The notes under the pieces were generated by a model. It searched no databases, had not been told where the DNA came from, and saw nothing but the letters and a program-made list of their open reading frames with translations. 64,000 nucleotides of DNA, taken from assembly GCF_016065055.1 (NCBI RefSeq), contig NZ_CP065856.1:3285836-3349835 (forward strand). Reading direction: 5' to 3'. Origin of the DNA: Halosimplex litoreum. GTDB taxonomy: Archaea; Halobacteriota; Halobacteria; Halobacteriales; Haloarculaceae. Of this stretch, positions 48,281-54,160 are shown in pieces. Position 1 is the stretch's first letter. The number at the start of each line of letters is the position of its first letter. The position numbers were made by a program, and so were the translations under genes.

Positions 48281-48319
48281 CGACGGATCTTTTTGCCGTT
48301 CCTCGCCGTTCGATCGTCC

Positions 48320-48850
48320 ATGAGCGACGGCGATAGCGACCCGGTCGTTTCGGCCGCAGACTTCGACTGGGACGAGTACGACCACGGCGAACGGGAGTTC
48401 CGTCGGAAGCGCCTCGGTGGCGCGGCCGGCGGCGAAGACTTGGGCACGAGCCTCTACGAACTCGAACCGGGAAAGCGGACGTGGCCCCGGCACTACCACG
48501 CCGGCAACGAGGAGGCCATCTACATCCTCGGTGGTGAACTGACGCTGTATCTGGAGCGTGGCGCGGACTCGGACGAGGAGGGCGAGCGGGCGGTGACCGA
48601 GCACGCCCTCGAACCGGGCGACTACGCGGCGCTGCCGAGCGGGCCGGACCACGCCCACGAGGTCGAAGCCCGCGGCGACGACACGGCTCGGTTTCTCGTT
48701 ATATCGACGATGAACGAGCCCGACCTGTCCGTGCTCGTCGAGCGCGACGCGGCGATGCTATTCGCAGGGGGTGCGCCCGGCAACTACGACGACCGCTACA
48801 TCTCGCAGACCGTGGACCTGGACGCCGAAGTAGAGTACTGGGAGGAGTAG
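48320..48850 (+). CDS. Cupin domain protein
   Basis: This 176-residue protein has a double-stranded beta-helix. The metal-binding motif is PRHYHAGNEEAIYILGGEL (about residues 55-73), giving His, His and Glu, and the second part is GDYAALPSGPDHAHEV with the fourth histidine. It is likely a metal-dependent sugar or small-molecule binding or isomerase protein of unknown substrate. ATG 48320 follows a CTTTTTGC TATA-like element by about 28 bases; the frame is open a further nine codons upstream. It is the last GC-rich gene before the AT-richer island. Confidence 0.85.
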   Translation: MSDGDSDPVVSAADFDWDEYDHGEREFRRKRLGGAAGGEDLGTSLYELEPGKRTWPRHYHAGNEEAIYILGGELTLYLERGADSDEEGERAVTEHALEPGDYAALPSGPDHAHEVEARGDDTARFLVISTMNEPDLSVLVERDAAMLFAGGAPGNYDDRYISQTVDLDAEVEYWEE

Positions 48851-48916
48851 GCGATTCCGGCCTCTCTGGGTCGACCACCGCTATCGTCGGCTCCGGATAC
48901 ATCGTCGCGGCGTTCG

Positions 48917-49051
48917 CCAGTACTTCTCATCTACAAGCACTCCACTATCGACTATCAGTCAAAATACCAATATCTGAAACCATTAGGTAAAATGTTTTCT
49001 AGACATAACAAGCAACAATAACAAACGCCCGGCAGTAGTAGTTGGCTCGCA
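48917..49051 (+). promoter_or_regulatory. AT-rich promoter region of the low-GC operon
   Basis: Base composition changes sharply here: stretches such as AAAATACCAATATC (about 48961) and GGTAAAATGTTTTC (about 48986) are unlike the rest of the window. One of them should contain the TATA box for the gene at 49052, leaving a leader of roughly 35-60 bases. CAACAATAACAA just before the start is unusual for this genome. Confidence 0.5.
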
Positions 49052-49624
49052 ATGAGCAACGAAGAGACAAGCAGCCGGTCGATGGACAGCGACACTGATC
49101 ATTCCGAGGCAAGCCGCCGACAGGTGCTACAGGCGGTCGGTAGCAGCGCGGTGCTGGGTGTGGGCCTCTCGCAAGCCTCTGGGAGCGTAGCGGCTCGAGA
49201 CGACGATAGCTACGAGACGGAACGACTCTCGAAGAAAGAGGCGGGAGAACTCCGTGGCGAAGTGATGTCTTCGAGCGCGTTCAAGACGGTTCGCCAGGAG
49301 TTGCAGGATAGGGACTTCTGGCCGAGCTTCGGTGAGAGCGCAGTGGCTGCGAGAGTCACAAGTACGGAATCCGATGAAGAGTGGTCCGTATTCAAGATGA
49401 ACTGTGAGTACAGAGGAGATAAATCTGGTGATGATGGCAACAAAGCGATTCTGTACGCAAGGAAGGACGACGGAAGGCTGTTCGTCCGTAGTATCTTCCG
49501 GAGAGACAGTGATCCAGTCAACGTCTACGAATACGAGTGCGATGTCGGAGACAATTCGTCAGCAGGTAGCGCGGAAGAGATGTCACATTTCGTGATCCCT
49601 GTCTCAGGAGGAGGTGACAACTGA
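49052..49624 (+). CDS. Tat-signal protein of the low-GC island, unknown
   Basis: A 190-residue protein with a twin-arginine signal: an Asp/Ser-rich lead, SRRQVLQAVGSSAVLGVGLS, then a likely cleavage after SVAARD. The exported part (about 145 residues) is charged, has two cysteines (about residues 115 and 171) and alternating strand-like segments (SDEEWSVFKMNC, KAILYARKDDGRLFVRSIF). I recognise no family. Its stop overlaps the next start as TGATG, so the two proteins are made together. Codon use becomes less GC-rich through the gene. An exported partner, immunity or precursor-like protein is possible but unproven. Confidence 0.82.
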   Translation: MSNEETSSRSMDSDTDHSEASRRQVLQAVGSSAVLGVGLSQASGSVAARDDDSYETERLSKKEAGELRGEVMSSSAFKTVRQELQDRDFWPSFGESAVAARVTSTESDEEWSVFKMNCEYRGDKSGDDGNKAILYARKDDGRLFVRSIFRRDSDPVNVYEYECDVGDNSSAGSAEEMSHFVIPVSGGGDN

Positions 49625-50190
49625 TGCCCCCCGAGATCTCCGGTTACGACTGTGGTGGTTCGATACAGGTCGAAGAGCTATGTGGGTTATTTCACGATAG
49701 CGATAGTCAATTGAACGATTTCTTCGACGACCTCGGTATCGAAACCAGTTTCAAAGAAGTCTCGTGTGCAAGTGTCGGGATATCTAGTGGAGCGGCCGCA
49801 GCTACAGGGGTACTAAGCGGATGGCAAGGATTTGCCCTATTTAGTACGGTCTGTGGTGGAACTACGATGGGTTGTATCATTAACGATGCGATACGTAACA
49901 ATACGCCCTGCGGAAGTCAAATTATCGACGTTTACATTCCAGAGTCGATCGATGACGGTGCCGAGTATCCACCTGTGCTATTACTAATTCGATGCGAGAA
50001 GGATGTTTCAGACGATATTGAGCAACTGACTGAAGACATTACTGATAGACTGGACAATGCAGCCGATGAGGCAGTCGATATTACAATAAAAACTGGTACC
50101 GAGATCGCCGATCAATTGAAGGACGCAGCCGGGTCGTTAAACCAACTCACCGACGATATTATAGATGCGGGTCAAGATATAATCTTCTGA
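49624..50190 (+). CDS. Cysteine-containing hydrophobic-core protein, halocin-like candidate
   Basis: This 188-residue protein has no N-terminal signal. Residues 48-98 are small-residue-rich and hydrophobic with four cysteines (C48, C77, C84, C96: SCASVGISSGAAAATG, STVCGGTTMGCII, TPCGSQ). Other cysteines are C10, C20 and C124. Residues 125-188 form a long amphipathic helix rich in Asp, Ile and Leu (DIEQLTEDITDRLDNAADEA). The cysteine-rich, glycine/alanine-rich core recalls halocin C8-type peptides in style, but I cannot show homology. It is translationally coupled to the Tat protein and followed by two tiny membrane proteins. GC content is clearly below the window average. Confidence 0.82.
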   Translation: MPPEISGYDCGGSIQVEELCGLFHDSDSQLNDFFDDLGIETSFKEVSCASVGISSGAAAATGVLSGWQGFALFSTVCGGTTMGCIINDAIRNNTPCGSQIIDVYIPESIDDGAEYPPVLLLIRCEKDVSDDIEQLTEDITDRLDNAADEAVDITIKTGTEIADQLKDAAGSLNQLTDDIIDAGQDIIF

Positions 50191-50200
50191 ACGACAGACG

Positions 50201-50377
50201 ATGTCTTCTATTCTGGACTGGGATCGATACGAGATAGCGATCGTGGTGGTACTGTACCTCCTCGCAGGTGTCGAATTAACCAGGGGGGACGAGGATGGAT
50301 TCACCATCTATCTTGCCGCGGGAACGGCTACTCTCATTATTATGCTCTCGATCAAGTGGTGGCAGTCAGACAAATAG
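50201..50377 (+). CDS. 58-residue two-helix membrane protein
   Basis: A small frame (ATG to TAG) with two hydrophobic helices, EIAIVVVLYLLAGVEL (residues 11-26) and FTIYLAAGTATLIIMLSI (34-51). They are separated by a charged TRGDEDG turn, and the end is KWWQSDK. It lies ten bases after the previous gene and seven before the next on the same strand, with matching low GC. It is too short for common gene callers. Position suggests an immunity or export accessory of the preceding pair; this is inference. Confidence 0.72.
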   Translation: MSSILDWDRYEIAIVVVLYLLAGVELTRGDEDGFTIYLAAGTATLIIMLSIKWWQSDK

Positions 50378-50384
50378 AGAATCA

Positions 50385-50591
50385 ATGAAGATCGTATTCA
50401 CAGGATTCGAACTATTCGGTATCGCGTTGGTCCTCACCGCTGCCATCGTCACGACGTACGACTTTGGGGTCCATTACGGGACGACGAGTGGATGGATCCT
50501 CTTAGCCTTGCTCGGGATGGCGATAGCCACCATCCACAACATCAGGTATCCGCGCGTGGATCAGAACCCGAACGATGCAACGACCGAGTAA
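50385..50591 (+). CDS. 68-residue two-helix membrane protein
   Basis: ATG 50385 begins a protein with two helices, FELFGIALVLTAAIVTTY (residues 8-25) and SGWILLALLGMAIATIHNI (35-53), and a polar tail ending NPNDATTE. The frame is open 30 codons earlier inside the neighbouring gene, but those codons give a Ser/Arg-rich peptide, so the internal ATG is preferred. It is the last gene of the low-GC operon. Its size and topology parallel the 58-residue protein, although the sequences are not obviously homologous. Confidence 0.72.
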   Translation: MKIVFTGFELFGIALVLTAAIVTTYDFGVHYGTTSGWILLALLGMAIATIHNIRYPRVDQNPNDATTE

Positions 50592-50839
50592 GGATTTCTA
50601 ACTCTGCCTTGTTCGTTCACCATTTTCGTTCCGTCGACAAAATCGATGCGGACGCACGGTTACGGCCCGGATCTGGAATCTCGGTGAAGAACGACGCACG
50701 AGATCCCGAATCGGTTTACCAACCGCCTTCGGCTGGCGCTTCCATCTGAGAAGCGGATAGCAGCACGACCGGGCCAGTGGCGAAAAGGGCCGTTTGAACG
50801 TACGGAAGCAGTTTTTCCGTGGGGAGCGACCCGGCGACT

Positions 50840-51418
50840 ATGCGACGACGCGCCCTCCTCGCCACCCTGGCGTTCGGGTTGACGGGCTGTCTCGACCTGG
50901 TTGGTCGGGACGGCAACGGACCGACAGCCCACGGTACTGGCCCCGAGCCGACGCCCGCGACGGACGCGACGACGCGAACCGTCGAACCGGCCGAGCAACG
51001 CGCTCCGCAGTCGGACCCCGAAGCCGAGTCGCCGACCGAGACGTATCGGCTCGGCGACGGGCCGCCCAGCGGCGCGCAGGCGCACGAACTCGTCGTCTGG
51101 CGGGACGGGCCGGTGCGGCCTGTGACCGTGGAGGTATCGGCGCCGGAAGCGGACATCGCCGTCTCGCCGACGCCACAGCTGGAACCCGGTGCGTACCTGC
51201 TGTTCGAGCTGACCGAGCGGGTCGACTACGAGGTGGCCGTCCACGTCAAGGGCGGGACGTGGTACGGGTTCGACCTTCCGGGGAGCTACGTCGACTGCAA
51301 CGACTCGCGGACGACCGTCCGAGTGCCCGAGTCCGAGCCGGTCGAGTACGGGACGTTCACGACAGCCATGGGCTGTCGGGTCACCGTATCGTCACCGACC
51401 GCCGACGGAGACGAGTGA
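50840..51418 (+). CDS. Putative lipoprotein
   Basis: A 192-residue exported protein with a short signal and lipobox: MRRRALLATLAFGLTGCLDL, with Cys20 as the lipidation site. A Thr/Pro/Glu-rich spacer (about 28-75) precedes a compact beta-rich domain (HELVVWRDGPVRPVTVEV, AYLLFELTERVDYEVAVHV) with two further cysteines near residues 154 and 178 that could form a disulphide. A CAGTTTTTCC TATA-like element about 27 bases upstream supports ATG 50840. Function is unknown. Confidence 0.8.
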   Translation: MRRRALLATLAFGLTGCLDLVGRDGNGPTAHGTGPEPTPATDATTRTVEPAEQRAPQSDPEAESPTETYRLGDGPPSGAQAHELVVWRDGPVRPVTVEVSAPEADIAVSPTPQLEPGAYLLFELTERVDYEVAVHVKGGTWYGFDLPGSYVDCNDSRTTVRVPESEPVEYGTFTTAMGCRVTVSSPTADGDE

Positions 51419-51470
51419 GCCGGTCGGGGATCGGTGAAACGGCGACGCCGTTCCTGGCTCGGCCGTCCGC

Positions 51471-51854
51471 TCACTCGCCCGCCTTCGGGTCGAACACGCC
51501 CCGTCGAAGGCCCTCGCGAACGGGTTCGTGTTCGGCGTCGGTCGGCGGCGGCGCGGTGACCAGCAGCGCCTCCAGCCGGCCGCCGTCGTCGGCCTTGACG
51601 CCGCGGTCGATCCCTGCGAGGACCGCGACCACGTCGCCTGGTTCGACGCGGTGGTCGGTGTCGCCCTCACGGACGACGCCCGTCCCATCGCGGACGTGGA
51701 CGACCACGTCGCTGTCGGGCGCGTGGACCGGGATGAACTGCTCGGGCTCGAAGTAGCCACAGACCGCCTTCAACTGGTCGCTTCGGAACGCCTCGCGGGC
51801 GCTGAAACTGTCATCGTCGTACTCCCGTTCGGCGTCGAAGTCCGTCGCTGGCAT
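51471..51854 (-). CDS. Small cupin domain protein
   Basis: A 127-residue single-domain cupin. Part 1 is FIPVHAPDSDVVVHVRDGTG (about 41-60) and part 2 is EPGDVVAVLAGIDRGVKA. The usual first metal-ligand motif (HxH...E) is weak: only one histidine lies in VHAPDSDV. Metal binding is therefore uncertain. It is convergent with the lipoprotein gene. A small-molecule-binding or regulatory role is the default reading. Confidence 0.8.
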   Translation of the reverse strand: MPATDFDAEREYDDDSFSAREAFRSDQLKAVCGYFEPEQFIPVHAPDSDVVVHVRDGTGVVREGDTDHRVEPGDVVAVLAGIDRGVKADDGGRLEALLVTAPPPTDAEHEPVREGLRRGVFDPKAGE

Positions 51855-51941
51855 CGTCTAGACGACGGAGCGGCGGGGAAAGGCCGCTTGGCCGAACGGG
51901 TTCGGTCGCTGTCGACGGCGCCCGAACGAGACGGTCGCAGA

Positions 51942-52076
51942 TCAGTCCCGAACCGCGCGGATCCCCTTCTTCGCTCCGTAGTAGGCCCACTCCGCGGAGT
52001 AACAGAAGACGCAGCCGCGGAACGTCGGCCTGTTCGACCTCTCCTCGGACTCGCCGGCGTCGGCGGTAGCGGTCAT
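51942..52076 (-). CDS. 44-residue small protein with CxxC motif
   Basis: A 45-codon ATG frame on the minus strand: an acidic lead, then TFRGCVFCYSAEWAYYGAKKG with one CxxC pair and an aromatic stretch. TTCTTATC (52099-52106 on +) lies about 26 bases upstream of the start, as expected for a leaderless gene, and it diverges from elp3. It is shorter than normal annotation limits. Only one CxxC is present, so a zinc site would need a dimer or partner. Function is unknown. Confidence 0.5.
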   Translation of the reverse strand: MTATADAGESEERSNRPTFRGCVFCYSAEWAYYGAKKGIRAVRD

Positions 52077-52203
52077 GTACGGAGCGGAGGACTCGTCGGA
52101 TAAGAAGGTACCGTCGACGTGCGCGGCGAGCGCACGGGCCGAAGGCCGCGCGATAGGCGAGCGACACGCTTATTCGCGCCAGGCGACGATCCCTGACAAC
52201 GCG

Positions 52204-53886
52204 ATGAGCACCGAGACGCCGGACGCGAGCGAGCCCGAAGCGGACGAACCGGAGGCGTTCCTGAAGGCCTGCCGGGAACTCGTCGACCGCATCCTCGCCG
52301 GCGAGATCGAGAAAGACGACGTCGAGAACGCGAAGAAAGAGGTCTGCGGGAAGTACTCCTCCCCGAAGGTCCCCAGAAATTCGGACCTCATCGACTTCGG
52401 GCCCGACGAGCGCCGCGAGGAGCTGGAGGCGGTCCTCCAGCGCAAGCCCGTTCGCACCGCGTCGGGCGTCTCCCCGATCGCGATCATGACCTCGCCGAAG
52501 CGCTGTCCCCACGGGAAGTGTCTGTACTGTCCCGGCGGTCCCGACTCGGAGTTCTCCTCCGCGCAGTCGTACACCGGCCACGAGCCCGCGGCCGCCCGCG
52601 GGGTCCAGAACGACTACGACCCCTACGGACAGGTGCGCCTGCGGCTCGAACAGCTCCGCCAGATCGGCCATCCGGTCGACAAGGCCGAGCTGATCCTGAT
52701 GGGCGGGACGATGACCGCCCGGAGCCACGACTACCAGGAGTGGTTCGTCAAGCGCGCCCTGGAGGCGATGAACGAGTACGACCCGGAGGGAAACCCCCAA
52801 CCGGCGGAGGACAGGAGCTTCGCCCAGGACCCCGAGGATCGCGAGTTCAGCTACGTCGAGGACGTGATCGCCGAGAACGAGACCGCCGAGGTGCGCAACG
52901 TCGCCACGACGTTCGAGACCAAGCCCGACTGGTGCGACCCCGAGCAGATCGACCGGATGCTCGACCTCGGCGCGACGAAGGTCGAGGTGGGCGTCCAGAC
53001 CACCTTCGAGCGGATCAATCGGGAGATGCACCGCGGCCACGGCACGCAGGACGCCATCGACGCCAACCGCCGGCTGCGCGACTCGGGGTTCAAGGTCGGC
53101 TTCCACATGATGCCCGGCCAGCCCGGGATGAGCAAGGAGATGTGTCTGGAAGACTTCCGACGCATCTTCGAGAACACCGACTGGCGACCCGACTTCCTGA
53201 AGATATACCCCACGCTCGTCGTCGAGGGGACCGTGACCTACGACTGGTACCGAAAAGACGAGTTCGAACCGCTCTCCAACGACGAGGCGGCCGAGTTGGT
53301 CGCGGAGATCAAGTCGATGATCCCCGAGTACACGCGCCTCCAGCGAGTGCAGCGGGACATCCCCGCGGACTTCATCGAGGGCGGCGTCTGGAAGTCCAAC
53401 CTCCGACAACTGGCCCGCCAGCGCATGGACGAGCACGGCTGGACCTGCGACTGCATCCGCTGTCGGGAAGTGGGGCATCACGACGAGGAGCCCGAGGAAG
53501 TCACGCTCGCCGTCGACACCTACGAAGTGGCGGGTGGCCGCGAGCACTTCGTCAGCTTCGAGGACCGCCAGAAGGGGGTTCTGGTCGGGTTCTGTCGGCT
53601 GCGGTTCCCGAACGACCCGGTCCGACGCGAGCTGCAGGACGCTGCAGTGGTCCGCGAACTCCACGTCTACGGGAGCGAAGTCGGGGTGGGCCAGTCCGCG
53701 GGCGAGGGGAGCGGGAGTCACCAACACCAGGGGTACGGCAAGCGACTGCTGGCCGAAGCCGAGCGGCTGGCCGCCGACGCCGGCTACGACAAGCTGGCCG
53801 TCCTCTCGGGTATCGGCGTTCGGCAGTACTACCGCGAGAAGCTCGGCTACCGCCAAGACGGCCCGTACGTGAGCAAGCGACTGTGA
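52204..53886 (+). CDS. elp3: Elp3-type tRNA uridine-34 acetyltransferase/radical SAM enzyme
   Basis: This 560-residue enzyme makes carboxymethyl-type uridine modifications at the tRNA wobble base. The radical-SAM cysteines are in CPHGKCLYC (C101, C106, C109). Further motifs are LILMGGTMTARSHDYQEWF, KVEVGVQTTFERI and a CDCIRCREVG zinc/SAM-region motif near residue 420. The C-terminal GNAT domain has HQGYGKRLLAEAERLA. A TATA-like GCTTATTCG is about 31 bases before ATG 52204. The last codons are part of the 137-bp tandem repeat that follows. Confidence 0.94.
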   Translation: MSTETPDASEPEADEPEAFLKACRELVDRILAGEIEKDDVENAKKEVCGKYSSPKVPRNSDLIDFGPDERREELEAVLQRKPVRTASGVSPIAIMTSPKRCPHGKCLYCPGGPDSEFSSAQSYTGHEPAAARGVQNDYDPYGQVRLRLEQLRQIGHPVDKAELILMGGTMTARSHDYQEWFVKRALEAMNEYDPEGNPQPAEDRSFAQDPEDREFSYVEDVIAENETAEVRNVATTFETKPDWCDPEQIDRMLDLGATKVEVGVQTTFERINREMHRGHGTQDAIDANRRLRDSGFKVGFHMMPGQPGMSKEMCLEDFRRIFENTDWRPDFLKIYPTLVVEGTVTYDWYRKDEFEPLSNDEAAELVAEIKSMIPEYTRLQRVQRDIPADFIEGGVWKSNLRQLARQRMDEHGWTCDCIRCREVGHHDEEPEEVTLAVDTYEVAGGREHFVSFEDRQKGVLVGFCRLRFPNDPVRRELQDAAVVRELHVYGSEVGVGQSAGEGSGSHQHQGYGKRLLAEAERLAADAGYDKLAVLSGIGVRQYYREKLGYRQDGPYVSKRL

Positions 53887-54160
53887 GAGCGGCCGATCCG
53901 TCGTCCCGAGCGCGAACGGGGTGAGCGCTCGGCTTTTTCGCCCACGTTTTTGCCGAGCGGGTCGCCGAGCGACCCCGAGGGAAAAAGGTGGGACCTGGCC
54001 CGTACGTGAGCAAGCGACTGTGAGAGCGGCCGATCCGTCGTCCCGAGCGCGAACGGGGTGAGCGCTCGGCTTTTTCGCCCACGTTTTTGCCGAGCGGGTC
54101 GCCGAGCGACCCCGAGGGAAAAAGGTGGGACCTGGCCCGTACGTGAACAAGCGGCTGTGA
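53864..54160 (+). repeat. Perfect 137-bp tandem duplication after elp3
   Basis: Two identical 137-bp units lie at 53864-54000 and 54001-54137. A third, 23-base partial unit at 54138-54160 has two changes (GAACAAGCGGCTG instead of GAGCAAGCGACTG). Each unit begins with the last 23 bases of elp3, including its stop. It then carries an 8-bp inverted repeat CGCTCGGC/GCCGAGCG around two T-runs, and a GGGTCG/CGACCC hairpin. Thus two terminator-like structures follow elp3. This fills the gap 53887-54194; no gene is seen there. Confidence 0.92.

Follow-up and report, generated by a model that had tools for sequence, protein, structure and literature searches.

Composition and insertion site of the four-gene block

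The analyzed DNA, here called the window, is a stretch of 64,000 nucleotides of Halosimplex litoreum and contains four tightly packed genes on the plus strand (49052-50591), the reading frames of which are all open. The GC content of the block is 0.517, whereas the other 1540-bp segments of the 64 kb have a mean of 0.687 (SD 0.025, minimum 0.623). An initial annotation of the sequence had described an abrupt drop in GC and four co-directional genes at this place, and both observations hold. The features relevant for the following sections are:

48854-51463, no strand: insertion relative to the congener G209
49052-49624, plus strand: gene 1, Tat-exported protein of 190 aa, mature domain with well-supported homology to halocin C8 precursors in their N-domain (HalI part)
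49052-49198, plus strand: Tat signal region of gene 1 from the sequence, SRRQVLQ at residues 21-27 and an AxA-type end near residues 46-49
49232-49309, plus strand: predicted helix-loop-helix of gene 1 (residues 61-86), its best conserved part, aligning with halocin C8 precursors; AlphaFold2 pLDDT ~95
49610-49617, plus strand: Shine-Dalgarno sequence of gene 2, GGAGGTGA, within the last codons of gene 1
49624-50190, plus strand: gene 2, 188 aa without signal peptide, six conserved cysteines; candidate for the effector
49642-49692, plus strand: N-terminal motif GYxxxGxIxxxxLC of gene 2 (residues 7-23), conserved in alignments
49765-49995, plus strand: core of gene 2 from C48 to C124, by alignment a Gly/Ala-rich hydrophobic stretch followed by C84-xxxxAI-C96-VY-C124; it matches the C-terminus of L055
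49999-50187, plus strand: C-terminal tail of gene 2, acidic and amphipathic; L053 and L055 lack it and both end at the last cysteine
50201-50377, plus strand: gene 3, two-helix membrane protein of 58 aa by hydrophobicity, candidate immunity protein
50385-50591, plus strand: gene 4, two-helix membrane protein of 68 aa by hydrophobicity

We regard 48854-51463 as an insertion because the cupin genes on both of its sides are immediate neighbors in the congener G209, where the 2.6 kb are missing at the same site. Using blastn, window positions 48291-48853 and 51464-53998 matched L110 4716-4154 and 4148-1619, respectively. The island had been placed at 48917-50640 in the initial annotation; the four genes do lie there, but the true insertion unit is wider and includes a lipoprotein gene (50843-51418). 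This gene is GC-rich (0.708) and is also absent at the site of the congener. Among the eight genomes of the genus the gene 2 family occurs in H. litoreum alone, with three copies, two of them truncated and located elsewhere in the genome. Presence in one genome of the genus in combination with the insertion corresponds to a mobile cassette with a patchy distribution, and the gene block looks horizontally acquired and recently inserted.

Gene 1 and the N-terminal domain of halocin C8 precursors

That the first gene encodes a protein with a Tat signal had been proposed before, and the SRRQVLQ sequence in gene 1 confirms this. The signal is conserved in all relatives of gene 1, and Tat models gave weak matches below the cut-off. 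AlphaFold2 predicts gene 1 with confidence from residue 51 onwards, as a helix (61-73), a loop and a second helix (75-86) followed by an antiparallel sheet. Fold searches with this model in PDB and BFVD gave no match at E 0.001, and in hmmscan against Pfam and NCBIfam gene 1 reached no family. Neither gene 1 nor its relatives L018 and L019 were matched by PF22862 (Hac8_like_N) in hmmscan, and for this reason we do not call gene 1 a member of that family. Comparison of L015 with L021 indicates that gene 1 is under constraint (dN 0.24, dS 1.06).

With the full gene 1 profile, many weak matches are due to nothing but the Tat signal. The weaker matches also include single-gene precursors with cysteine-rich ends, several of which score above the halocin C8 cut-off. 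As Tat signals match each other anyway, the comparison set of 24 halocin C8 precursors was picked solely by the C-terminal TIGR04449 domain, and both the Tat signal and the peptide were removed from the precursors; gene 1 was likewise used as mature part. One member of this set, L068, contains the exact halocin C8 peptide. Aligned to the precursor N-domains with hhalign, the mature part of gene 1 reached a score of 49.8 over 89 columns, compared to a maximum of 15.0 in 100 column shuffles and 11.4 with the reversed profile. The E-values printed by hhalign apply to one comparison at a time and lack a database calibration, and therefore we rely on shuffles and controls. At the level of single sequences, the 24 precursor N-domains outscored 195 control ORFs against gene 1 (Mann-Whitney p = 5e-7). 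Judged from these sequence comparisons, homology between the mature domain of gene 1 and the N-domain of halocin C8 precursors appears well supported. In halocin C8 the immunity protein HalI arises from the N-terminal part of the precursor once this has been exported by Tat (PMC11509114), and Mei 2008 (J Bacteriol 190:6501; cited in PMC11509114) states in its title that a helix-loop-helix at the N-terminus of HalI is essential for immunity.

Related N-domains are also present in the Tat proteins L044, L045, L047, L050 and L063, which carry other cysteine-rich C-termini; those of L044, L045 and L063 are not recognized by the halocin C8 model. These five proteins are possibly a polymorphic effector set on a common N-domain.

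Gene 2 is a separately started cysteine protein

Genes 1 and 2 overlap as TGATG (TGA 49622-49624, ATG 49624-49626), in agreement with the coupling noted earlier. The Shine-Dalgarno sequence at this junction is also found in L015, L018, L019 and L021, is slightly altered in L053 and L133 and is weak in Halarchaeum. The spacing of both genes varies among the relatives, with overlaps of 4 or 1 bases and gaps of 1 or 2 bases. A conserved programmed frameshift fusing genes 1 and 2 was considered and rejected, as the frame offset is not equal among the relatives and a Shine-Dalgarno sequence is present. Both findings together indicate that gene 2 is made as a separate protein without signal peptide.

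The initial annotation listed C48, C77, C84 and C96 of gene 2. All four are present, but the list was too short: gene 2 has seven cysteines in total, and six of them (C20, C48, C77, C84, C96 and C124) are conserved in every full-length member. The conserved N-terminal motif is a possible contact site for gene 1. The structure model of gene 2 (pLDDT 53) is too poor for interpretation and points to strands no less than to membrane helices. Homology to a cytosolic enzyme, named earlier as an argument against an exported peptide system, was not found: in Pfam and NCBIfam gene 2 had no match above the cut-off and matched no enzyme family. TIGR04449 did not match gene 2 either, and a search of the own genome with this model was also negative. 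A profile comparison of gene 2 with the halocin C8 peptide by hhalign gave 17.8 over 8 columns at a null maximum of 15.6, which is not significant. On the basis of this result and the lacking TIGR04449 match, we rejected gene 2 as a homologue of the halocin C8 peptide.

A link between both genes is provided by L055 from genome G220, which was found via the gene 1 profile. It is a single protein of 363 aa with a Tat signal and a gene-1-like N-domain, and its C-terminus matched the gene 2 profile with 6.4e-6 in an hmmsearch among 2649 ORFs. The hhalign score of this C-terminus against gene 2 is 32.4, compared to a maximum of 20.1 in 200 shuffles. L055 resembles the cassette in the Tat signal, the N-domain, the gene-2-like core and a small membrane gene downstream. 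It differs in being one polypeptide, in the position of the amphipathic helices, which precede the core in L055 and follow it in gene 2, and in having fewer cysteines, with four in the core region. As a natural fusion, it implies that genes 1 and 2 of the window encode proteins of one system, with the core as an exported part. Taking the data together, gene 2 is likely the effector half. We also considered L042 as another fusion containing a gene-2-like core, which the comparisons do not support (hhalign probability 0.1; E 14).

Distribution and degraded copies of the cassette

Relatives of gene 2 are present in about 13 of 392 Halobacteriales genomes. Full-length relatives of gene 1 (whole-gene profile, E below 1e-80) occur in six genomes, in all of them directly before gene 2, and the pairs span three families; named carriers are Halarchaeum nitratireducens, Natronobiforma cellulositropha and the isolate HArc-gm2. 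The order of Tat protein, cysteine protein and two-helix protein recurs in other haloarchaea. The cassette is therefore not a product of chance, given the recurrence of gene 2 relatives, the constant adjacency of gene 1 and the repeated gene order. Absence of the genes from each other's neighborhood in other genomes had been mentioned in advance as an argument against a common system, and the constant pairing of gene 1 and gene 2 answers it.

A second, divergent split arrangement is located at L053 746-1896, with a Tat protein, a cysteine protein of 101 aa and a two-helix protein of 63 aa, and a relative of this arrangement at L134 2856-4177. The GYxxxGxIxxxxLC motif is found in the same register in L053, which is not significant alone. 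As a homologue of gene 2, the cysteine gene of L053 is suggestive at most (21.2 vs. a null maximum of 22.7).

The two further copies of gene 2 in the H. litoreum genome (G000:C1, 2.21 and 3.62 Mb) are truncated at the 5' end (L012 4922-5559 and L013 5059-5707). Each is accompanied by an intact two-helix gene of 53 or 55 aa and has no gene 1, and one of them is located directly after a Cdc48-like ATPase gene. At L021 5019-5309, gene 2 has lost its cysteine core by an in-frame deletion and retains 97 aa; gene 1 and the two-helix gene are both intact there. No copy was found on viral contigs. Plasmids contained one degraded copy, on pHH126 of Haloarcula hispanica, and no gene 1.

The small membrane genes

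Genes 3 and 4 encode proteins with two hydrophobic segments each, as expected from the earlier description of two small two-helix membrane proteins of 58 and 68 residues. A small two-helix ORF is located at the same place after gene 2 in five of the six cassettes with gene 1; in Halarchaeum no such gene follows immediately. For gene 4, the second two-helix gene, most other cassettes showed no counterpart. Where gene 1 and the front of gene 2 have been lost, an intact two-helix ORF is mostly retained (L012, L013, L016, L017, L102, L103, L112, L137 and the second locus in L113), and in L111 this ORF stands alone. The degraded cassette L133, in which the two-helix gene is lost, is a counter-example to this retention. 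For the orphan two-helix genes, dN/dS values of about 0.2 to 0.9 on 55 codons do not allow selection to be demonstrated.

Small membrane proteins are a usual kind of bacteriocin immunity protein, and the fact that degraded copies mostly retain the two-helix ORF supports an immunity role of these proteins. The solitary or nearly solitary two-helix genes of L111, L137, L112 and L103 are found in Haloarcula-type genomes and on plasmid pHH126, with remnants of gene 2 adjoining or none, and are candidate orphan immunity genes.

Discussion

We interpret the block as a horizontally acquired, split halocin-type antagonism cassette and assign a probability of roughly 55% to this interpretation. As such it would be a variant of the halocin C8 kind of system, to which gene 1 is related by its N-domain and in which gene 2 would act as the effector. 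The system of halocin C8 and its precursor ProC8 (TIGR04449 halocin_C8_dom; PF22862; HalI) and the cassette share the Tat signal, a homologous N-domain beginning with a helix-loop-helix, a cysteine-rich hydrophobic C-terminal partner and, often, small membrane genes nearby. In contrast, halocin C8 is made as one polypeptide containing the immunity part and the peptide, whereas the cassette uses two genes with a separate start for the second. Furthermore, gene 2 is longer, contains six conserved cysteines and an acidic tail and is not matched by the C8 model, and gene 1 stays below the PF22862 model. The idea of a halocin-C8-like precursor split in two genes, put forward in the initial annotation, is thus upheld for gene 1 by the homology of the N-domain and indirectly for gene 2, because L055 joins a gene-1-like and a gene-2-like domain; a detectable C8 peptide is not part of gene 2. 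The loss of the core with retention of gene 1 and the two-helix gene in L021 also counts for a split antagonism cassette.

In the mechanism that we propose, gene 1 would represent the N-terminal HalI-like half, consisting of the Tat signal and a small folded domain that starts with the helix-loop-helix, and gene 2 the separately started, signal-less C-terminal effector half. Both proteins would be made from one message in coupled amounts. In the cytoplasm the gene 1 domain may bind gene 2 and hold it harmless, and the complex would be exported by the Tat system with gene 2 as passenger. Outside the cell the disulfide-rich core of gene 2 may be released and act on the membranes of competing haloarchaea, and the two-helix membrane proteins would protect the producer. 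The Tat system moves folded proteins. To our knowledge, Tat passenger export is known for bacterial enzymes and not for halocins. An example of such hitchhiker export, in which a signal-less partner is carried by a signal-bearing one, is PaoABC of Escherichia coli (PMC4273604). These are bacterial enzyme complexes, whereas the cassette would encode a small archaeal effector pair using a comparable route. We put forward only tentatively, and with less than even odds, that a signal-less halocin-type effector exits via Tat bound to a separately encoded HalI-like immunity partner, so that effector and protector are free to recombine as two genes.

Export of the pair could also serve a purpose other than antagonism, if the gene-1 domain generally served secretion or chaperoning in haloarchaea and gene 2 were its cargo with a role at the surface, in adhesion or in protease inhibition. 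N-domains of the gene 1 superfamily indeed precede several unrelated cysteine-rich C-termini. We consider this unlikely, because the sole superfamily members of known function are halocins with the immunity located in the N-domain (PMC11509114) and because a patchy, mobile and repeatedly degraded cassette beside small membrane genes is what is expected of antagonism loci. Another alternative would be that gene 1 alone is secreted and gene 2 stays inside as a cytosolic or inner-membrane partner, for example an immunity factor or a regulator, in line with its missing signal peptide. However, the matching core of L055 sits in a protein with a Tat signal, the six conserved cysteines suit an exported disulfide protein, and gene 2 is likewise broken in those copies from which gene 1 has disappeared, which makes such a role quite improbable.

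The low GC content, the lineage-specific insertion and the two truncated copies elsewhere in the genome would also be compatible with a decaying insertion without present function. As the four open frames, the junction, the Shine-Dalgarno sequence and all conserved cysteines are intact in the window, and gene 1 is constrained between L015 and L021, we regard decay as very improbable.

With gene 1, the halocin C8 precursor domain reaches further than the curated models, and our analysis indicates that the two halves of such precursors exist in fused as well as in split form. If the mechanism is true, the cassette would be a simple archaeal pair in which a toxin is exported through Tat as passenger of its own protector. 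The combination of a Tat domain, a cysteine core and a two-helix gene can also be used as a search key for unannotated archaeal antagonism genes. In genome G218 a PIN-type and ribbon-helix-helix-type gene pair, resembling a toxin-antitoxin system, is located directly downstream of the cassette (L015 3934-4756), and such a pair is also found beside a cassette remnant in G241.
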